In this document: one piece after another, positions 1 through 32,327 of the stretch
Layout of the letters: the number at the start of each line of letters is the position of its first letter
Numbering within the stretch: the first letter of the stretch is position 1
Source: Candidatus Kuenenia stuttgartensis
GTDB taxonomy: Bacteria > Planctomycetota > Planctomycetia > Pirellulales > UBA1268
Assembly: GCA_943332855.1 (NCBI GenBank)
Contig: CALQRA010000027.1
Location: 1 to 32,327 of the forward strand
DNA length: 32,327 bases
Reading direction: 5' to 3'
The notes under the pieces: model-generated
The model's database searches: none
Told to the model about the DNA's origin: nothing
Seen by the model: the letters and a program-made list of their open reading frames with translations, nothing else
Translations under genes and position numbers: made by a program

Positions 1-843
1 CCCGAGACCGATGTCGCCGCGCAGCTCCGCTACACCGCCGTCCGCGACAAGGTGGGGGATTCGTGGCCGATTGCCTCCTACAGCGAGTTTGCCGATGACC
101 CGTCACCGACGCCGGCCGAGATGCTCTCGGCGGTGTCGTTTCTCGTTGGCGACTGGATCGACGAGAGCCCCGAGGGGAAGACGACGATCAGCTACCGCTG
201 GGAGGATGAGGGCAACTTTCTCCTTGGCGACTACACGCTCGCGGTTGCCGGGATGCCAGAATCCCGCAGCCATCAGCGGATCGGCTGGGATCCGCTCGAG
301 GGGGTGATCCGCAGCTGGACGTTCGATTCCGACGGTGGCTTCAGCACCGGCGAATGGGTACCGACGGAAGCCGGCTGGGTGATTAAGTCAGATGCCACGA
401 TGCCCGACGGCACGACCGGCTCGGCCACCGTGACGGTGACGCCGACCGACGCTGACCACTTCATCGTGCGTTCGAGCGATCGGATCATCGGCGGCGTCGA
501 TGAGCCGGAGTTTGAGCTGACGGTGGCCCGCCGGCCGCCGCAGCCCGAAGGGGCGCTTCCGGGTGGCGAAGCGAAGCCGGCCGCACCCCCGGCCGCCGAG
601 GCCCCGAAGGCGGTTCCAGCGCAGCCGACCCCCGCCGCTAAGCCGGCCGTGCCCGCCACTCCCACCACACCGGCCGTCAAGATCGTGCCGGCCGCGCCAT
701 CTGCCCCGCCGCCAGCAGCCCCGGCTCCCGCTGGTGGAAAGCCGGCCACGCCCGCTCCGGTCGGCAGCGTAAAGCCCGCGGTGCCTGGGGTTCCTGCCGT
801 GCCGGCGCCGCCGGTCGTCCCTGGCAAGCCTTTGGGGAAGTGA
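1..843 (+). CDS. SnoaL/DUF4440-type protein with C-terminal DUF1579-like domain and Ala/Pro tail (5' end missing)
   Basis: The frame is open from base 1, so only the C-terminal 280 residues are present; the GTG at 52 is internal. The first residues (TAVRDKVGDSWPIASYSEF) look like the end of a SnoaL-like (SgcJ/EcaC, DUF4440) domain. They are followed by a beta-rich domain with FLVGDWIDE, RIGWDPLEGVIRSWTFDSDG and a closing ELTVARRPP, the pattern of planctomycete two-domain proteins usually named SgcJ/EcaC family. About the last 95 residues are an Ala/Pro/Val/Lys low-complexity tail (repeated PAVPA, PAAPA), which is unusual for that family and may be a wall- or surface-spanning linker. No catalytic residues can be assigned, and the enzyme name carried by the family is historical. 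The gene ends with TGA at 841-843 and is followed by a hairpin-rich spacer. Confidence 0.7.
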   Translation, partial: PETDVAAQLRYTAVRDKVGDSWPIASYSEFADDPSPTPAEMLSAVSFLVGDWIDESPEGKTTISYRWEDEGNFLLGDYTLAVAGMPESRSHQRIGWDPLEGVIRSWTFDSDGGFSTGEWVPTEAGWVIKSDATMPDGTTGSATVTVTPTDADHFIVRSSDRIIGGVDEPEFELTVARRPPQPEGALPGGEAKPAAPPAAEAPKAVPAQPTPAAKPAVPATPTTPAVKIVPAAPSAPPPAAPAPAGGKPATPAPVGSVKPAVPGVPAVPAPPVVPGKPLGK

Positions 844-949
844 GTCGGAGCCCGCGCGGGGAAGTGATTCGGCGCGACCGAACCAACTCCCCGTCAGCCA
901 CGAAGAGTTTTCCCCCGCCTGCAAACTTAAAAAATCATCGGAGACCGAG

Positions 950-1023
950 CCGGCTGCCGGGGCAGCCGGTCGATCCGGGGAACGTGGAACACCCTCAAAA
1001 CGCCTGTGTTTTGCGGGAGTGTT
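950..1023 (+). other. Two strong hairpins in the spacer before the repeat-protein gene
   Basis: The 315-nt spacer 844-1158 contains no convincing gene. Bases 950-957 pair perfectly with 962-969 (CCGGCTGC/GCAGCCGG, 4-nt loop). Bases 988-1001 pair with 1008-1023 (outer AACAC/GTGTT, inner CAAAAC/GTTTTG, two single-base bulges, about 14 pairs). Together with the T-tailed hairpin at 1036-1055 this gives three consecutive stem-loops. They could be the 3' end of the upstream transcript or a structured leader of the downstream gene. Confidence 0.5.
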
Positions 1024-1035
1024 GACCGTCGCATC

Positions 1036-1055
1036 AAGCGGCGGGGCGCTTTTTT
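1036..1055 (+). terminator. Candidate intrinsic terminator
   Basis: AAGCG (1036-1040) pairs with CGCTT (1047-1051) around a GCGGGG loop and runs into six T residues (1050-1055). The stem is short (5 bp), so it may work as a terminator for the upstream gene or as an attenuator ahead of the gene at 1159. Confidence 0.45.
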
Positions 1056-1158
1056 ATCGACAGCCTGCTCGTCGCGCGACCCTGCCGAGGGGTCCCGCGG
1101 CGACGGATTCCAACGACTCATCCCGGGATTTGATCCCAACTTCAAAGGTGCCTTTCGA

Positions 1159-4100
1159 ATGCGCGCGATGCTTGCGTGTGCCTGTGCGGTGCTCCTTGTG
1201 GCGGCGATCCCGCTCGTGGTCGAAGCCGGGCCGCCGATGGGGAGAGTGGGGGGGGGCGGTGCCCGATCGGCTGCTCCCGCGGCCCGGCCGCAGATGAACA
1301 TGCAGCGGCCGAGCCCGCAGATGTCGCGGCCAGCCCCGCAGATGAATCGCCCGAGCCCGCAGATGCAGCGGCCGAGCTCCCCGCAGATGTCGCGGCCGAG
1401 CCCGCAGATGAACATGCAGCGGCCGAACATGGGGCAGGCGATGCAGCGCCCGGCGCCCGGCGGCATGACGGGGATGCAAGGGATGCAGCGCCCCGCTGCC
1501 CAGCCCAATTTCCAGCGCCCCGGCATGGGGACGAACATGGCCCGCCCCTCGTTTCCCAGCGCCGCCAACCGGCCTGCCCCGCAACCCGGCCAACTCGGTG
1601 GCGGCGTGAACCGACCCGGCATGGGAGGCGTCGGGGGCCCTGGGATGACGCGGCCTTCGCCGCAGCCGGGGAATCTTGGCGGGCTCAATCGCCCCGGTGG
1701 TCTTGGTGGCGGTCTTGGCGGAGGTGCCGCTGGACTGCCGGGCCAACTCGGAGGGCGGCCCGGTGGGCTCGGTGGCGCAGGCACGCTTCCCGGCCAGCTT
1801 GGCGCCGGCTCGGCGAGCCGCCCGGGTGGTGGCTTTGCCAATCGGCCCGCTCCGTCGTTTCGCCCCGGCCAAATCGGCGGTGCGGGCCCAGGGGCTGGTG
1901 GCGCCGGAGGCTTGGGGGGCAATCGTCCTGGTGGGCTCGGCGGCGGCAACGGCCCTGGCGGAGCGACCACGCTCCCCGGTCAGATCGGTGCTGGCGGGAA
2001 TCGCCCCCTCGGCCCTGGTGGAGCCACGACGCTGCCTGGCCAGATCGGCGCTGGCGGTAACCGTCCCCTCGGCCCTGGTGGGGCCACGACGCTCCCCGGC
2101 CAGATCGGCGCTGGCGGTAACCGCCCCGGCGGCCCTGGTGGGGCCACAACGCTTCCCGGCCAGATCGGCGGTGGCGGGCCTGGCGGCGGTGGATTCGGCG
2201 GCGGTAACCGGCCGAGCCTCGGCGGGATCGCGACAAAGCCCTCGTTCCCGCAACCCGGGGGCGGATTTGGCCCCAATCGCCCCGGTCCCGGCGGCGCGAC
2301 GACGCTCCCCGGCCAGATCGGTGGTGGTGGGAATCGCCCGACCGGTCCTGGTGGCGTGACGACGCTCCCCGGTCAGATCGGCGCTGGCGGCAATCGCCCC
2401 GGTGGGATCGGCGGCGGGAATCGCCCGACTGGTCCTGGTGGCGTGACCACGCTCCCTGGCCAGATCGGCGGCGGAGGGAATCGCCCCGGTGGGATCGGCG
2501 GCGGGAACCGCCCGACTGGTCCCGGTGGCGTGACGACGCTCCCCGGTCAGATCGGCGCTGGCGGCAATCGCCCCGGCATCGGCGGTGGCGGCAACCGGCC
2601 AGGTGAAGGAGGCTTTGGTGGCGGCAACCGTCCGGGCGGGATCGGTGGCGGAAGGCCGCTCCCCGGCCAGATCGGCGACGGAAATCGCCCTGGCCGTCCT
2701 GGTGAAGGGGGCTGGAATCAGGGTGGGCGCCCCGGCATCGGTGGCAATCGGCCAGGTGGCTGGAATGGAAACCGCCCCGGCGACCTCAACGGCAATCGGC
2801 CGAACTGGAACAACCGCCCCGGCGCCAACGGCAACAACAACAACATCGGCAACAACGTCAACATCAACAACAACAACTTCAACAACTACGGCGGTGGTGG
2901 TTGGGGGGGCGGCTACGGCGGCGGCTACTACGGCGGTGGCGGCTACAACAGCGGTTGGAACAACGGCTGGAGCAACTGGGGGGCGTTTGGCGTCGGCGCC
3001 GGCGTCGGGGCCCTGGCCGGCTGGGGCCTCGGCAATTCGTGGGGCTATGGTGGCTATGGCGGATACGGTGGCGGCTATGGCGGCTATGCCAACGCCTGGA
3101 ACACCGGCTACGTCAATCCCTACTACGACAACTGGTACAACGGCTGCTGGGGGAATGGCTGGGCTTCGCCGGTCGCTTTCGGCGCGGCGACCCTCGGGAT
3201 GTCGTCGATGGTCAACTCGTGGGGGCTGGGCTCGAGTTCGCTCGGGTATGCGACCAGCTACGCCAATCCGTACTACGGCGCCGAGGCGGCGACGGTGGCG
3301 TCTGCCTCCCCCTACGACTACTCCCAGCCGATCGTCGTCAATAACTACATCACGAGCGACGGTGGCAGTGCCACGAACTCCGCGCAAGGTGGCGACGGTC
3401 AAGGGGGCGACGGCGGGGCCGGCACGGCGGCGGCCCAGATCACTCCTGCCCAGGCGGAGGCCAACAAGGCCCTCGACGAAGCCCTCGGGAAGTTCAAGCA
3501 GGGCGACTACCCCGGCGCGCTTGCGAGCATCGACCGGGCGGTGAAGTCGGCGCCCAACGACACTGTGCTCCATGAGGTTCGGGCGCTGTCGCTCTTTGCC
3601 CTCGGGCGCTATCCCGAGTCGGCGGCAACGCTCAATTCGATTCTGGCCGTGGCGCCGGGGATGGATTGGACGACGATGAGCGGCCTGTATGGCTCCGTCG
3701 ACACCTACACCGGCCAGCTGCGGAAGCTCGAAGACTTTTGCCGCTCGAATCCGGGCAGTGCCGCGGGGCATTTTGTCTTGGCTTACCACTACCTCGTCGG
3801 TGGCCACGCCGATCTCGCGGCTGAAGCGCTCAAGGTGGTGGTGGCGAAGCAGCCGGGCGACATCGTCTCCAAGCGGCTGCTTGAGTCGCTCGAGCCGCCG
3901 GCGGAAGTGAAGGCGGAGGAGCTGGCCGCTCCGGCGGAGGCTCCCAAGCCGGCCCCCGCGTCGGCTGCGACTCAGCCGGCGGTGCAAACGCCAGCGCAGG
4001 CTGAGGCCCCGGCCGAGGCCGAGCCAGCCGGCCCGGAGACTGATCTCGTTGGCACCTGGAAGGCCACCGAGGGGAAGAGCTCCGTCACGCTCACGATCGG

Positions 4101-4320
4101 CGAGGATTCAGCGTTCACCTGGAGGGCCGAGCCGGAAGGGAAGCCGGCAATCGAGCTGAAGGGAACGCTCGACAGCAACGCCGATCAGATCGCCCTCCAG
4201 ACGGAGGCCCAGGGGACGATGGTCGCCAACGTGAAGTCGAAGGGACCCGATGCTTTCGACTTCCTCGTCGAAGGAGCCCCGAAGGACGCCAAGCCGCTCC
4301 AGTTCGCCAGGCAGAAATAA
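1159..4320 (+). CDS. Large secreted Gly/Pro/Asn-rich repeat protein with TPR-like and C-terminal beta domains
   Basis: 1053 aa. The ATG at 1159 is chosen over an upstream in-frame start because it opens a clear signal peptide (MRAMLACACAVLLVAAIPLV, then VEAGPP) and has AAAGG nine bases upstream. Order of parts: PQM/RPSPQM repeats (about residues 45-115); Gly/Pro-rich LPGQ(I/L)G.GNRPG repeats (about 140-530); an Asn-rich stretch (about 555-575); Gly/Tyr/Trp repeats with GYGGYGG and NPYYDNWYNG (about 577-735); a two- to three-helix-pair TPR-like segment (about 765-910, FKQGDYPGALASIDRAVKSA); an Ala/Pro/Glu linker; and a terminal beta domain beginning DLVGTWKATEGKSSVTLTI (about 965-1053). Planctomycete secreted proteins often join such low-complexity regions to TPRs. 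A role at the cell surface or in the periplasm is inferred; no enzymatic motif is visible. A terminator-like structure follows. Confidence 0.8.
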   Translation: MRAMLACACAVLLVAAIPLVVEAGPPMGRVGGGGARSAAPAARPQMNMQRPSPQMSRPAPQMNRPSPQMQRPSSPQMSRPSPQMNMQRPNMGQAMQRPAPGGMTGMQGMQRPAAQPNFQRPGMGTNMARPSFPSAANRPAPQPGQLGGGVNRPGMGGVGGPGMTRPSPQPGNLGGLNRPGGLGGGLGGGAAGLPGQLGGRPGGLGGAGTLPGQLGAGSASRPGGGFANRPAPSFRPGQIGGAGPGAGGAGGLGGNRPGGLGGGNGPGGATTLPGQIGAGGNRPLGPGGATTLPGQIGAGGNRPLGPGGATTLPGQIGAGGNRPGGPGGATTLPGQIGGGGPGGGGFGGGNRPSLGGIATKPSFPQPGGGFGPNRPGPGGATTLPGQIGGGGNRPTGPGGVTTLPGQIGAGGNRPGGIGGGNRPTGPGGVTTLPGQIGGGGNRPGGIGGGNRPTGPGGVTTLPGQIGAGGNRPGIGGGGNRPGEGGFGGGNRPGGIGGGRPLPGQIGDGNRPGRPGEGGWNQGGRPGIGGNRPGGWNGNRPGDLNGNRPNWNNRPGANGNNNNIGNNVNINNNNFNNYGGGGWGGGYGGGYYGGGGYNSGWNNGWSNWGAFGVGAGVGALAGWGLGNSWGYGGYGGYGGGYGGYANAWNTGYVNPYYDNWYNGCWGNGWASPVAFGAATLGMSSMVNSWGLGSSSLGYATSYANPYYGAEAATVASASPYDYSQPIVVNNYITSDGGSATNSAQGGDGQGGDGGAGTAAAQITPAQAEANKALDEALGKFKQGDYPGALASIDRAVKSAPNDTVLHEVRALSLFALGRYPESAATLNSILAVAPGMDWTTMSGLYGSVDTYTGQLRKLEDFCRSNPGSAAGHFVLAYHYLVGGHADLAAEALKVVVAKQPGDIVSKRLLESLEPPAEVKAEELAAPAEAPKPAPASAATQPAVQTPAQAEAPAEAEPAGPETDLVGTWKATEGKSSVTLTIGEDSAFTWRAEPEGKPAIELKGTLDSNADQIALQTEAQGTMVANVKSKGPDAFDFLVEGAPKDAKPLQFARQK
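1966..2580 (+). repeat. In-frame 60-bp and 87-bp coding tandem repeats
   Basis: The core TTLPGQIG occurs eight times. The four copies near 1969, 2029, 2089 and 2149 are exactly 60 bp apart. A second block has copies near 2302, 2362, 2449 and 2536 (60, 87 and 87 bp apart). The 87-bp unit is the 60-bp unit plus a 27-bp insertion encoding an extra GGNRP-type motif. All spacings are multiples of three, so copy-number change keeps the frame. Confidence 0.85.
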
Positions 4321-25775: not shown

Positions 25776-28547
25776 TCACCAAGTCTTGCCGAGGGCGGCC
25801 TGGGCCGCGGCCAGCCGGGCGACCGGCAGGCGGAACGGCGAGCAACTCACGTAATCGAGACCGAGGTGGTGGCAGAAGAGGACCGAATGGGGGTCGCCGC
25901 CATGCTCGCCACAGATCCCGAGCTTGATGTCGGGGCGCGTCTTCCGCCCCTTCTCGACGGCCATCTGCATGAGCGCGCCGACGCCGGTGGTGTCGATCGA
26001 GGCGAACGGGTTCGCCTTGAAGATCCCCAGGTCGGTGTACTTCTGCAGGAAGGAGCCCATGTCGTCGCGGCTCATCCCCAGGCAGGTTTGGGTCAGGTCG
26101 TTGGTGCCGAAGCTGAAGAACTCGGCGCTCTCGGCGATCTCGTCGGCCGTCAGCGCGCCGCGCGGGATCTCGATCATCGTGCCGACGAGATACTTCACCT
26201 TCACCCCGGTCTCCTTCGCCACCTTCGCCGCCACGGCGTGGACGATCTCGAGCTGGTTGTCGAGTTCCTTCTTGAAGCCCACCAGCGGGATCATGATCTC
26301 AGGCTTCACTTTGATGCCATCCTTTTGCACCTTCGCGGCCGCCTCGAACACAGCCCGAGCCTGCATCTCCGAGATCTCGGGGTAGCTGACGCCGAGGCGG
26401 CAGCCGCGGTGGCCGAGCATCGGGTTGAACTCGTGGAGCGCCTCGACGCGGCGGTGGACGACCTCGACGGGAAGCTTGAGCTTCTTCGCGAGGTCGGCCT
26501 GGGCCTTCTCGTCGTGCGGCACGAATTCATGCAGCGGCGGATCGAGGAAGCGGATCGTCGCCGGGCGGCCGTCGAGGGCCCGGAAGATCCCCTCGAAATC
26601 GTCGCGCTGGTAGGGGAGGAGCTTCGCGAGGGCCGCCCGACGGGCGTCGAGCGACTCGGCGAGGATCATCTCCCGCATCGCGTCGATCCGGTCACCCTCG
26701 AAGAACATGTGCTCGGTGCGTGTCAGGCCGATTCCTTCGGCGCCGAAGGCGATCGCGTGCCGGACCTGCTCCGGGGTGTCGGCGTTGGTGCGGATGCCGA
26801 GCTTCCGGTGCTTGTCGGCGAGCTTCATGATGAAGGCGTAGTACTGGTAGACCTTCGAGTCTTCCGGCTTCATCGTGTTGCTAACGAGCACCTGCTTGAG
26901 CTCGCTGTCGGCGGTCTTGATGGCGCCGGAGAAGACTTCGCCGGTGCTCCCGTTGATCGAGACATCCTCCCCCTCCTTGAGGGTCGTCGAGCCGCAGACG
27001 AGCGTTCCCTTGGCGTAATCGATCGAGATCGCGCCGGCACCGGCGACACACACCTTCCCCATCTGGCGGGCGACGAGGGCTGCGTGGCTCGAGACACCAC
27101 CGCGGCTGGTCAGAATCCCCTCGGCCGCGATCATGCCACGGAGATCCTCCGGTGAAGTCTCGACGCGAGCGAGGACGACCTTCTTCCCCTTCTCGGCGAG
27201 CTCCTCGGCCTTGGCGGCCGAGAAGACGAGCTGCCCGGTGGCGGCACCGGGGCCGGCGGCCAGGCCGGTTGTCAGCACCCGGCCCGCCTTCTTCGCCTTC
27301 TCGTAGTCGGCCCGATCGAAGATCGGGGCGAGGAGCTGCGAGAGGGCATCCGGATCGGCGCTCTGGATGGCGTGCTCCGGGGTCATGAGCTTCTGCTTGA
27401 CCATGTCGTGGGCGATCTTCACGTAGGCCAGCGCCGTCCGCTTGCCGTGGCGCGTCTGAAGCATGTAGAGCTTCTTCTTCTCCACCGTGAACTCAAAGTC
27501 TTGGACGTCGCCGAACTTCTTCTCCAGCTTCTCGCGGACCTTCTCGAGCTGCTTGTAGGTGTTGGCAAACTCCGTGTCGTGCGCCATCTCGATGACCGGC
27601 TTCGGCGTGCGGACGCCGGCCACGACGTCTTCCCCCTGGGCGTTGACGAGGTATTCGCCGTAGAAGACATCCTCGCCGGTGGCCGGGTCGCGGGTGAAGG
27701 CCACGCCGGTGGCGCAGTCATCCCCCATGTTGCCAAACACCATGCTCTGGACGTTGACGGCGGTGCCCCACTCGTCGGGGATCTTGTACTTGCGACGGTA
27801 GATGATCGCCCGTTCGTTCATCCAGCTGCCGAAGACGGCAGTGATCGCTCCGATGAGCTGCTCGAAGGGATCCTGCGGGAAGGTCTTCCCGGTGCGCTCC
27901 TTGATGAGCTTCTGAAAGCGGCTGATGAGATCCTTGAGGTGATCCTCGGTGAGCGCGGTGTCTTCCTCGACGTGGGCCTGGTGCTTGACCTTCTCCATCA
28001 CCTCTTCGAACGGGTCATGCTCGTTCTCGTGGCGCTTCTGCACCCCCATGACGACGTCGCCGTACATCTGGATGAAGCGGCGGTAGGAATCGAAGGCGAA
28101 GCGGCCATTGCCGGTGGCCTTCTTCAAGCCCTCGACGGTCTTGTCGTTGAGGCCGAGATTCAGGATCGTGTCCATCATCCCCGGCATGCTGTCGCGGGCA
28201 CCGGAGCGGACGCTCACCAGCAGCGCGTTGGCCGGGTCGCCGAACTTCTTCCCGGTCTCCTTCTCGAGCAGCTTCACGTAGTGGGCGATCTCCTCCTCGA
28301 GCCCCTTGGGGAACTTCTTCCCCGAGGTGTAGTAATCGATGCACATCTGCGTCGTGATCGTGAAGCCCGGGGGAACCGGGAGCCCGATCTTCGTCATCTG
28401 CGCGAGATTCGCCCCCTTGCCGCCAATGATCGCCTTCATGGTGCCGTCGCCGTCGCACCGATCAACGCCGAAGTAATAGATCATCCTCCCCGGCTTCGAC
28501 GCGGCGGGCTTCTTGGCGGCAGACTTCTTCACGGACGATTTGGCCAT
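25776..28547 (-). CDS. ppdK: Pyruvate, phosphate dikinase
   Basis: 923 aa. The enzyme interconverts pyruvate + ATP + Pi and phosphoenolpyruvate + AMP + PPi in the cytoplasm. Domains: a Lys/Ala-rich leader (1-20), an ATP-grasp domain with [20 protein letters not shown] and [20 protein letters not shown], the swivelling phosphohistidine domain with [15 protein letters not shown] (H488), and the PEP/pyruvate barrel ending [20 protein letters not shown], then [20 protein letters not shown] with the catalytic Cys. Two residues before H488, where plant PPDK has its regulatory threonine, there is a serine (S486). The ATG at 28547 has no good ribosome binding site; M22 is a possible alternative start. 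It has its own promoter and terminator. Direction is unknown: gluconeogenic PEP formation or PPi-linked glycolysis. Confidence 0.96.
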
Positions 28548-28788: not shown

Positions 28789-29913
28789 TCATCCCCCCTG
28801 CCCCACCGCGTCGGCCCGGCGGATCGCCCCCTCTACCATCGCGGCCGTCACCGGGAACGGCTCGTTGTGGGTCACCTCGCCGGTCTGGACCGCGCGGGTG
28901 GCGATCTGCTGCAGCAGCCCCCCATCGATGCCACCGAGGCCGAGCTGTCGGAGCGTCACTGGCAATCCGACCGATCGGCAGAAGGCGAGCACCTCGGCGA
29001 TCTCTCCGGCCGGCGCATCCTCGAGGCAGAGCTGCGCGAACGTCCCGAAGGCGACTTTCTCCCCATGGAGCGCGGCATGGCACCCGGGGGCCACCGTCAG
29101 CCCATTGTGGATCCCGTGGGCCGCTGCCAACCCCGCTGATTCAAACCCGAGCCCTGAGAGGAGCGTGTTGGCCTCGACGATCCGCTCGAACGCCCCCCGT
29201 GCCCCGGCGTCCATCGCTCTGCCGCCGGTCTGGTTCGCGGCCCGCTGCGCCGCCAGCGCCGCGGTGCCATCCGCCCGGAGTGTCTTCCAGCAGAGCTCGG
29301 CAAGCGCAAGCGCGGCGCGGGTCGGCGTGCCGCCGCGGCTGTGGGTCGCACCCGAGCGGGCGCAGGCCCGGGCCTCAAACCAGGTCGAGAGGGCGTCCCC
29401 CATTCCTGCCACGAGGTAGCGCTCGGGGGCGGCGAGGATGACGTCTGTGTCGACGAGGACGAGGGCGGGGTTGCGGGGATGGAGCCTCGACTCCTCCACA
29501 ACGCCCTCGTCGCTGTAGATCACCGAGATCGCGCTGGTCGGTGCGTCGGTCGAGGCGATCGTCGGCAGGGAGACGATATCGAGATCGAGCTCCGCGGCCA
29601 CCGCGCGGGCCGTGTCGATCGCCTTTCCGCCCCCCGCTCCGACGATCGTCCGGGCCGCGAGGCCCCGGGCCGCATCGGCCACCGCGGCAATCTCGCGCCG
29701 AGAACATTCGCCGCCGAAGGGATGGATGGTAGGGGCGAAGCCGGCGGGCCCGAGCGACTGCTCCCAGATCGCGCCGAGCCTCCGGACTGCCGAGGCACCG
29801 GCGAGGATAAGCACCGGCCCTTCGAGCCCGAGCCGCGTCATCTCGTCGCCGAGCGTGGCCGCCACCCCCGGCCCCTGCACGTAGCGCGACGGCGCCGCAA
29901 ATACTTCAGCCAT
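28789..29913 (-). CDS. gldA: Glycerol dehydrogenase-like iron/zinc alcohol dehydrogenase
   Basis: 374 aa. The ATG at 29913 follows AGGAG by eight bases; the in-frame TTG two codons earlier is less likely. NAD-binding motif GAGGGKAID (92-100), STDAPTSAISVIYS, and the metal ligands D173 (GMGDALSTWFEA), H266 (AAAHGIHNGLT) and H283 (LHGEKVAFG) match GldA, so it should oxidise glycerol to dihydroxyacetone with NAD+ or act on a related small polyol or hydroxyketone. Length is normal for the family. It lies 241 nt upstream of ppdK on the same strand, and ppdK has its own promoter, so the two need not be co-transcribed. A metabolic link through dihydroxyacetone and lower glycolysis is possible. Confidence 0.9.
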   Translation of the reverse strand: MAEVFAAPSRYVQGPGVAATLGDEMTRLGLEGPVLILAGASAVRRLGAIWEQSLGPAGFAPTIHPFGGECSRREIAAVADAARGLAARTIVGAGGGKAIDTARAVAAELDLDIVSLPTIASTDAPTSAISVIYSDEGVVEESRLHPRNPALVLVDTDVILAAPERYLVAGMGDALSTWFEARACARSGATHSRGGTPTRAALALAELCWKTLRADGTAALAAQRAANQTGGRAMDAGARGAFERIVEANTLLSGLGFESAGLAAAHGIHNGLTVAPGCHAALHGEKVAFGTFAQLCLEDAPAGEIAEVLAFCRSVGLPVTLRQLGLGGIDGGLLQQIATRAVQTGEVTHNEPFPVTAAMVEGAIRRADAVGQGG

Positions 29914-30012
29914 GGTCAAGGCTCCTGGAGGAATAGTCTGTGTCAGTCACTGTCGGCGGCCAGTGTTGTGCCTGAAAGTTCGGACCCCGCGGTCACTTGC
30001 CGAGCAGCCTCC

Positions 30013-32327
30013 TCACTCCGCCGTGCCGAGCCAGCGGTCGATGATCGTGTCGATCGCACCATCCTCGCGCATCGAGAGGATCACGGCGTTGAGCCGCTCG
30101 CGGAGCGGGCTCCCCGCGGGGAGCACCAGCCCGAAGTCGAACGACTCAAACACCGGCCCGACGAGACGGTAGTTCGAACGGTCCGGCCGGGAGATCGCAT
30201 GACGGAGGGTTTGGTTCTCGGCGATCACCGCGTCCACCTCCCCCGCGTCGGCGGCCGCGAACACCTCTTCGAGCGTGCGGAACTCGATTGGCACCCCGCC
30301 GCGGGCCCGGATCGCCTGCCCACCGACGCCGGTGGCCTGCGTGCCGACCACGCGGCCGGCCATGTCCCTGGGGCCGTGGATCGTCCCCCCGATCCGCTCG
30401 GCCGTGAGCGTCGCCGCGAGCGTTCCGGTGAACAGCGCGATGACGACCGTGCCGACGAGCATCCAGCCGGTCGCCAGGATCCGCCCCAGCACCGTGTCGA
30501 CACGCTTGTCGTCACACCCGCTGGCGATGAGCGAGCTGATTCCCCACCATGTCCCCTCCCACGCGCCCCGCCGCCAGTCGCGCGGGAAGCTGTGGGAGTT
30601 GACGCCGCGCTCGCACCACCAAAGGAGATGGCCGACGAGCACCGTCAGGGCCAGGAGCCCCGCGAGCACCCCGAGCGCCTGACGCGAGAGGAGGATCGAG
30701 AGCGGGCCGAGCCAGGATTCCTCGTCGGTCTTTGGCACCGCGATCCTCAACCCCGAATGGAACACCGAGTGGGTGAAGTCGAAAATCTCCTCGCGCTCAC
30801 GTGTCATCGCCACCGGCCCGAGGAACAGGTCGACCTCCCCCTTCTGCACGGCCGCGAGCCCCTCGACGAGCGAGTCTCGAACGACGTACTCGGTGGTGAC
30901 GCCGATCCGGAGTGACATGTCTTCCCAGAAGTCGACCGAGGGCCCCATCGGCTTGCCATCTTTGATCTGGAGCGTCACCCCCACCGGCGCGACGCCGACC
31001 CGGAGCGTCTCGGCTCCGTCGGCCGCCGCGGACCCCCACGCGCCGCCCGAGGCGAGAACGAGGGCCACGACCGTGGCCGTGCGCCCGCCGCCGCGGGCCG
31101 CGAGTGCCACCAAGCCCGCGCCGATCGCCATCAAGAGCAAGGCCGCCGGGAGCGCGCCGGCGGGAAGCGTCGTCGAGGCCCCGGTCGCAAGCTCCTGCAC
31201 GCTCCCGTCGACCCCGCCGCCGCCGGCGAGCGCCAGGAGGAGGAGGGGCATCGTGTTGTGAACGGAGTGGAGCACGATCGACGGCAGGAGGCTCCCGGTG
31301 GCGACCCGCAGCCACCCGGCCACGAGGCCGAGGGAGAACGTCGCCGGCATCCGCTCGGGGAGGATATGGGCGACGGCGAACAGGGCCGCCTGGACGACGA
31401 CGGCGGCGGCGAGCCGGCGACGTGTCGGGCGCTCGCCGGCGAGGGCCGAGAAGAGCCATCCCCTGAAGAGCAGCTCCTCGGCCACCGGCGGGAGGAGGGC
31501 CATCAGCGTCCAGGAGACCCACCATGGATGCTGCTGGATGAGCCCGATGAGCCGCTCGGAAAGGCTGCGGATCGCCGGCGAGACCTCGGTCCCCTGCAGC
31601 GCCAGCATGAACGCCGCGGAGAGGATGAAGAGTCCCGCCCCGAGACTTGCTGCCCCGAGCACCGCCGCCACCGTCCGCCCTGCCGAGGGGGGCAGCACGA
31701 GGCCGAGCGTTCGCCGCAGGTCGACCCGCTGCCAGGCGAGCATCGCAAGCAGCGGCAGGAGCACGGCGATCCCCTGGTGGATCGGGATACCCACGAGGAG
31801 ATTCTCCGGTGTGAAAGCTTGCACGTACCACAGCGCCGCCAACCCCGCCACGATCGGTACGATCCCCTGGAGAACCGTGGGGAGAACGCGCGGGGCCGGC
31901 CGGGCGAGGAGGCCGCCGGTGGCATCGGGGCCGCGGAAGAGAATCTCCTCATCGGTGAGCAAGGTCGCGGTGCCGCGCAGGAGCAGCGCGGTCAACAGGG
32001 CCGAGGAGAGGAGCGTGAGGAGGAGCGGGAGAAGCGAGGAGATGATCCCTCCCCCGTCGGGATCGGGCGTGCCGGTGAGGGTGTCGCGGGCGACCATCAC
32101 CTGCCCCATGAACGGCACCAGCGCCAAGGCGCCGTCGCCGCGGAATCCGGGCACCAGCGCCATCCCGGAGAGCGCCGCCACGAGGAGGATCACCGGCGTG
32201 AGCGTGTTCTGGGCCTCCTTGCCACTCCTCGATGCCGTCGTCACCGCCAGGCAGGTGGCGGCGGCGAGCGCTGCCAGGCCGACGAACGCGATCACCGTCA
32301 CCGCCGCCCCGGCGCCGAGCGCCGGCA
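30013..32327 (-). CDS. Fusion: ABC-2/NatB-type permease end + CPBP intramembrane protease + ionotropic-glutamate-receptor-like channel (5' end missing)
   Basis: The frame is open through the right edge, so the N-terminus is missing; residues are numbered from an internal GTG at 32301. Residues 1-110 look like the end of an ABC-2/NatB permease (ASRSGKEAQNTLTPVILLV, then ALVPFMGQV). Residues 140-405 are a CPBP (CAAX protease-like) domain with all motifs: EELLFRG (275-281), F308..H312 and H345..N349. Residues 407-428 form a signal-peptide-like hydrophobic segment ending SAAADG. Residues 431-762 are a GluR0-type receptor: ligand lobe S1 (ETLRVGVAPV to PVAMTREREEIFDFTHSVFH, likely ligand Arg503), TM helix (about 541-562), pore region (WWGISSLIASGCDDKR), second TM (about 608-632), ligand lobe S2 (HGPRDMAGRVVGTQATGVGG to IDTIIDRWLG). 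The expected TVGYGD filter reads ASGCDD. ABC-2/CPBP fusions are known in planctomycetes; the receptor part is the oddity. A lost stop codon or assembly error is the main alternative. Confidence 0.8.
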   Translation of the reverse strand, partial: PALGAGAAVTVIAFVGLAALAAATCLAVTTASRSGKEAQNTLTPVILLVAALSGMALVPGFRGDGALALVPFMGQVMVARDTLTGTPDPDGGGIISSLLPLLLTLLSSALLTALLLRGTATLLTDEEILFRGPDATGGLLARPAPRVLPTVLQGIVPIVAGLAALWYVQAFTPENLLVGIPIHQGIAVLLPLLAMLAWQRVDLRRTLGLVLPPSAGRTVAAVLGAASLGAGLFILSAAFMLALQGTEVSPAIRSLSERLIGLIQQHPWWVSWTLMALLPPVAEELLFRGWLFSALAGERPTRRRLAAAVVVQAALFAVAHILPERMPATFSLGLVAGWLRVATGSLLPSIVLHSVHNTMPLLLLALAGGGGVDGSVQELATGASTTLPAGALPAALLLMAIGAGLVALAARGGGRTATVVALVLASGGAWGSAAADGAETLRVGVAPVGVTLQIKDGKPMGPSVDFWEDMSLRIGVTTEYVVRDSLVEGLAAVQKGEVDLFLGPVAMTREREEIFDFTHSVFHSGLRIAVPKTDEESWLGPLSILLSRQALGVLAGLLALTVLVGHLLWWCERGVNSHSFPRDWRRGAWEGTWWGISSLIASGCDDKRVDTVLGRILATGWMLVGTVVIALFTGTLAATLTAERIGGTIHGPRDMAGRVVGTQATGVGGQAIRARGGVPIEFRTLEEVFAAADAGEVDAVIAENQTLRHAISRPDRSNYRLVGPVFESFDFGLVLPAGSPLRERLNAVILSMREDGAIDTIIDRWLGTAE

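Follow-up and report, generated by a model that had tools for sequence, protein, structure and literature searches.

Prokaryotic ionotropic glutamate receptors (iGluRs) of the GluR0 type (Group 1, PMC2950845) have the order S1-M1-pore-M3-S2, lack M4 and carry the K+ filter TVGYGD. In the survey of Ger et al. (2010; PMC2950845), 22 prokaryotic iGluRs were sorted into two groups, one with the K+ filter and one with unrecognised pores; planctomycetes do not occur in its main text. A different family, NCBIfam ABC_perm_CPBP (NF041647), comprises ABC permeases with a CPBP domain and has no channel module. The gene described here combines both architectures. Its N-terminal two thirds correspond to NF041647, of which positions 6-634 of 636 are matched in an intact relative, and its C-terminal part shares the segment order of the GluR0-type channels. 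It differs from the latter in the filter, which reads TGGC[DE][DN]K in the family, and in the fusion itself, since most channel homologues inspected in the wider phylum are stand-alone proteins of about 360-490 aa with TVGYGD.

The window, i.e. the whole analysed stretch of 32,327 nucleotides, is contig C27 of a genome of 4.9 Mb in 361 contigs. On its minus strand a frame of 770 codons without a stop (30013-32325) runs off the contig end. The end of another contig of the same genome, C59, shares an exact overlap of 129 bp with the window end and contains the missing N-terminus. Joining C27 and C59 resulted in a gene of 1077 aa with an ATG start, the window contributing the C-terminal 770 aa and the stop codon (30013..32325, minus strand) and C59 the 5' part. 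The joined protein aligns continuously to relatives carrying the whole gene on one contig, and in intact relatives of this kind every domain lies in one chain. A preliminary description made from the window sequence had read the end of a permease, a CPBP protease and an iGluR-like module in one unbroken frame, with an ABC ATPase expected upstream. The open frame, the Pfam domains above cut-off, the NCBIfam match, the C59 join and the intact relatives confirm this three-part fusion and the predicted ATPase as genuine and conserved. All four domains named for the search, ABC2_membrane, Rce1-like/CPBP, SBP_bac_3 and Lig_chan, were found. An AlphaFold model of the window part was unusable, with a mean pLDDT of 38 on a shallow alignment.

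The C-terminal part of an ABC-2/NatB-like permease, together with linking membrane helices, is encoded at 31546..32325 (minus strand). NF041647 matches residues 7-364 of the window protein, and ABC2_membrane was detected in the intact relatives as well as in the N-terminal C59 piece (ABC2_membrane_2, PF12679, 71.5 bits). The curated cut-off of NF041647 (435 bits) is reached neither by a fused relative (380.9 bits) nor by an unfused one (411.4 bits), and the match of the gene itself is split (199.5 and 197.8 bits). The gene directly upstream of the fusion matches ABC_tran (PF00005) with 106.3 bits, and its stop codon overlaps the ATG of the fused gene (ATGA). Hence, an ABC-2 membrane domain and an adjacent ABC ATPase, as in NatAB-like ABC-2 exporters, are both present. 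The order NatA, permease-CPBP with or without the channel, often a dehydrogenase, and PPDK is kept among the relatives. In the window, the two downstream genes were assigned by inspection: a glycerol-dehydrogenase-like gene (28789..29919, minus strand), which serves as a syntenic marker outside the system, and a PPDK-like gene (25776..28547, minus strand), which follows the locus in fused, tandem and reduced relatives. Upstream of NatA, at positions 48-4191 of locus L049, lies a gene set that is syntenic across fused relatives; it comprises another ABC ATPase, a weak match to ABC-2 permeases and a membrane-like ORF without Pfam match.

The permease is followed by a CPBP/Rce1-like domain (31249..31524, minus strand; PF02517 at residues 268-359 of the window protein, 74.5 bits versus a cut-off of 22.4). 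Its sequence contains EELLFRG of the EExxxR type (motif 1, 31459..31479), FAVAHILPER of the FxxxH type (motif 2, 31351..31380) and the HxxxN-type motif HSVHN (motif 3, 31255..31269), all on the minus strand. By the Pfam cut-off and all three motifs the domain belongs to the CPBP/Rce1-like family and is a predicted intramembrane protease.

The C-terminal module shows the order S1-M1-P-M3-S2 of the iGluR superfamily, with SBP_bac_3 (PF00497; residues 451-767 of the window protein, 66 bits versus a cut-off of 26.4) split around Lig_chan (PF00060; residues 557-656, 40.8 bits versus 30.8). Guided by Lig_chan and by alignment to AMPA receptors, M1 was placed at 30616..30702; the pore loop lies at 30490..30561, and M3 at 30391..30486 (all minus strand), the latter ending in LFTGTLAATLTAERI, like SYTANLAAFLTVERM of AMPA receptors by the same alignment. 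A profile of the family channels matched the pore and M3 of AMPA receptors with an E-value of about 1e-32; its best PDB match was 2pyy, the ligand-binding domain of a bacterial iGluR homologue (E about 1e-45). The filter of the window protein, ASGCDDK (30505-30525), takes the place of TVGYGDK in phylum relatives. Throughout the family (f1) the filter follows T/A-G/S-G-C-D/E-D/N-K, summarised as GGC[DE][DN]K, the Cys and the Lys being kept in 52 of 52 sequences; the GluR0-type K+ filter is absent from all of them and present in 24 of 29 outgroup rows, drawn from the phylum and the order. In the alignment the family GCD falls on the GCD of AMPA receptors (pore QQGCD). One genome, G012, possesses two channel paralogues (L055/L060), and the divergent copy G012b has a GGCENK filter and no permease link. 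Since this stand-alone paralogue already carries GGCENK, the pore change is apparently older than the fusion. Other planctomycetes (L079, L080 and L098) encode tandem iGluR-like pairs with one TVGYGD and one LLLGHKG pore, which suggests heteromeric channels in these organisms.

The ligand-binding fold consists of an S1 lobe (30727..31008) with a conserved Arg in TREREEIFDF (30775-30804) and an S2 lobe (30022..30390) with an acidic residue in AVIAENQTL (30205-30231), both on the minus strand. The binding Arg, at the position of GluA2 Arg485, is kept in 52 of 53 rows and the S2 acidic residue (Glu or Asp) in 49 of 50. At the position of GluA2 Thr480 the Thr/Ser is lost, Ala being found in 53 of 53 rows, and the S2 Ser/Thr pair has mostly given way to [AGS]V. 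Because of these two losses, the ligand of the channel may be something other than an ordinary amino acid. Together with the missing K+ filter, the altered pocket would also suit a channel half that conducts no ions and serves the transporter as a membrane-anchored ligand sensor or accessory domain. We regard this as improbable, because M1, pore and M3 are still well conserved (pN/pS 0.28), the invariant Cys and Lys in the altered filter speak for changed function rather than decay, and the counterpart of the motif in the alignment is the GCD of AMPA receptors, which do conduct.

The preliminary description had suggested a check of related genomes for the same domain order and had named a stop codon or frameshift near 31083, or separate genes in all relatives, as evidence against a fusion. 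Checked on the DNA, the junction is open, with neither stop nor frameshift, in 27 out of 72 family genomes from five genera (11 in the window's genus g1, 8 in g3, 5 in g8, 2 in g7 and 1 in g6), and the same order is present in tandem in 20 more. Excluded from this count was G381, whose fused-gene match (L137) contains five in-frame stops and may represent a pseudogene or poor sequence. An assembly or sequencing artefact that deleted a stop codon might be suspected from the location of the gene at a contig end and from a further congener, G011, in which a run of C at the junction shows a shift by one base, owing to an error or to a break of recent origin. Such an artefact is ruled out, its probability being practically nil, by the 27 independent genomes with an open junction, many of them in mid-contig. 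Two further loci, L010 (G003) and L017 (G009), appeared as mosaics when compared with positions 30016-32325 of the window: the closest match of the permease-CPBP half is in the window's lineage and that of the channel half in G005 or G002, the change from one to the other falling near the junction. Interspecies recombination or chimeric bins may account for this.

In the 20 tandem genomes each half has a gene of its own, the two being adjacent and their order unchanged. Sixteen of these pairs overlap by 4 nt (RTGA), which implies coupled translation; two overlap by about 40 nt and two are about 30 bases apart. Only one tandem pair is divided by an in-frame stop, at positions 4383-4385 of L053 (G032), as if a fused gene had been broken by one stop codon. 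In four genomes (G012, G014, G029 and G353) the channel was located at another site or at a distance from the permease; other genomes have just one half. Some relatives keep permease-CPBP without a channel at the locus, so the link to the channel is not obligatory. In the channel tree, fusions occur on each of the three deep branches within the family and again in g8 inside the tandem clade, and the starred branches require at least two changes of state. A fused ancestor needs three changes (old fusion, split and re-fusion) and a tandem ancestor four (four fusions). A fused ancestor is therefore only slightly more parsimonious in this tree, and either direction is possible; the permease tree, with its long branches, contains more noise. 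The coexistence of fused, tandem, dispersed and reduced forms in one family, together with these forced changes of state, could mean that nothing but a common operon links the two proteins and that the absent stop codon is inconsequential read-through. However, the open frame persists across deep divergence, with 44-59% identity between genera, and most tandem cases have 4-nt overlaps. Both observations suggest that tight co-production matters, and neutral read-through appears quite improbable to us.

The stretch between CPBP and S1 bears on whether the product stays in one piece. In the fusions it consists of a full-length hydrophobic helix followed by a shorter hydrophobic stretch with a positive n-region. 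The extra helix after CPBP in the window protein, LPAALLLMAIGAGLVALAA (31096..31152, minus strand), is shared with the C-terminus of unfused permease-CPBP proteins, which stop just past it. The second element, RTATVVALVLASGGAWGSAAA (31021..31083, minus strand), resembles an internal signal peptide, with a positive n-region, a short h-region and an AxA-like site; in the clearest cases among the fusions, a segment of this type has 13-18 uncharged residues. An AxA-like site follows the short h-region in 17 of 19 tabulated fusions, G008 and G013 having no clear one, but these counts discriminate poorly, because the proteins are Ala-rich and AxA-like sites are common by chance. Within the window's genus, pN/pS of the signal-peptide-like segment is 0.62 versus 0.15-0.32 for the main domains; this segment and the loop before it are the least constrained parts of the fusion, and the segment changes in sequence in the manner of signal peptides. 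Every tandem-encoded channel inspected begins with a signal peptide, the same kind of segment as at the fused junction. The simplest reading of these sequences is that the fusion retained the signal peptide of the channel. The segment probably is a cut site of signal peptidase I, by which two proteins would arise from one frame, rather than a signal anchor.

With somewhat better than even confidence we propose that the frame yields a co-made pair in a fixed ratio, possibly separated by signal peptidase I. One partner would be a NatB-like ABC-2 permease that includes a glutamic intramembrane protease of the CPBP type and is driven by the ABC ATPase encoded upstream, the other an iGluR-like channel subunit (S1-M1-pore-M3-S2). 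The ribosome would thread the permease-protease into the membrane, leaving the C-terminus of its last helix in the cytoplasm, and the internal signal-peptide-like segment would send S1 across the membrane. There signal peptidase I would probably cut, and the freed channel subunit could tetramerise beside the transporter. On binding a small, carboxylate-bearing extracytoplasmic ligand, the S1/S2 clamshell would close and thereby open a pore no longer of the K+ type, and ligand and ion flux might accompany or tune export and proteolysis by the NatA/permease-CPBP unit.

Alternatively, the chain may remain uncut, as a one-polypeptide receptor-channel-transporter-protease in which S1/S2 binding is relayed through the covalent link to the CPBP and ABC parts. 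The stop-free frame in 27 genomes is compatible with this, the topology works without cleavage, and the fused state on all three deep branches would suit an old fusion that selection has maintained. Nevertheless, the AxA-bearing segment has been retained, the low constraint on it and on the loop before it is not what a working coupling element would show, and separate genes suffice in 20 relatives, so that we consider an uncut chain possible but not likely. It is likewise doubtful that a non-K+ iGluR-like channel joined to an ABC exporter permease and a protease forms a single-chain machine in which an extracytoplasmic ligand and ion entry directly gate export or proteolysis. Accordingly, what stands of the preliminary description is the three-part architecture, its occurrence in relatives, the ATPase and the apparent newness; its picture of a lasting single polypeptide with ligand-controlled export or proteolysis has against it the signal-peptide-like junction, the 20 split relatives and the changes of pocket and pore relative to amino-acid-gated K+ channels.

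The receptor-channel on a permease-CPBP chain had been put forward as a new architecture, and it is apparently new: neither the permease-CPBP-iGluR arrangement nor the GGC[DE][DN]K filter was found described in the literature searched, a scope that left out most subscription journals. No relevant account of a planctomycete iGluR, or of a CPBP-ABC fusion in planctomycetes, came up in full-text searches. At the sequence level the fusion is a new combination of known families, with permease-CPBP already an NCBIfam entry, and its function is a predicted one. Its interest lies in the fact that a bacterial relative of neurotransmitter-gated channels, whose physiology in bacteria is almost unknown, is tied to a defined transporter-protease by fusion and coupled translation. 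The fusion thereby offers a concrete handle on the role of such channels in bacteria. Furthermore, the passage of one bacterial family from a K+ filter to an AMPA-type GCD pore provides a natural experiment on the loss of K+ selectivity by iGluR pores.

A precedent for one gene encoding two membrane partners is the cytochrome b/c1 precursor FbcH of Bradyrhizobium, in which signal peptidase cuts an internal signal peptide. The likeness is confined to the internal signal peptide between two membrane partners; the proteins are unrelated, and cleavage in our fusion is only presumed. The channel itself resembles AMPA receptors in the pore, where GCD falls on GCD, and in M3, which ends in LAATLTAERI in the family and LAAFLTVERM in AMPA receptors. 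An acidic residue at the +4 position, the conservation of which is discussed in PMC12226733, is common to both. In contrast to AMPA receptors, the family channel has no N-terminal domain and no M4, carries Thr or Ala at the Q/R site and is fused to an ABC permease. In GlnPQ-type ABC importers (PMC8025302) a type-3 solute-binding fold is likewise covalently joined to an ABC membrane subunit, whereas in the present fusion a channel pore interrupts the binding fold, and the transporter is an ABC-2 one with a CPBP domain.
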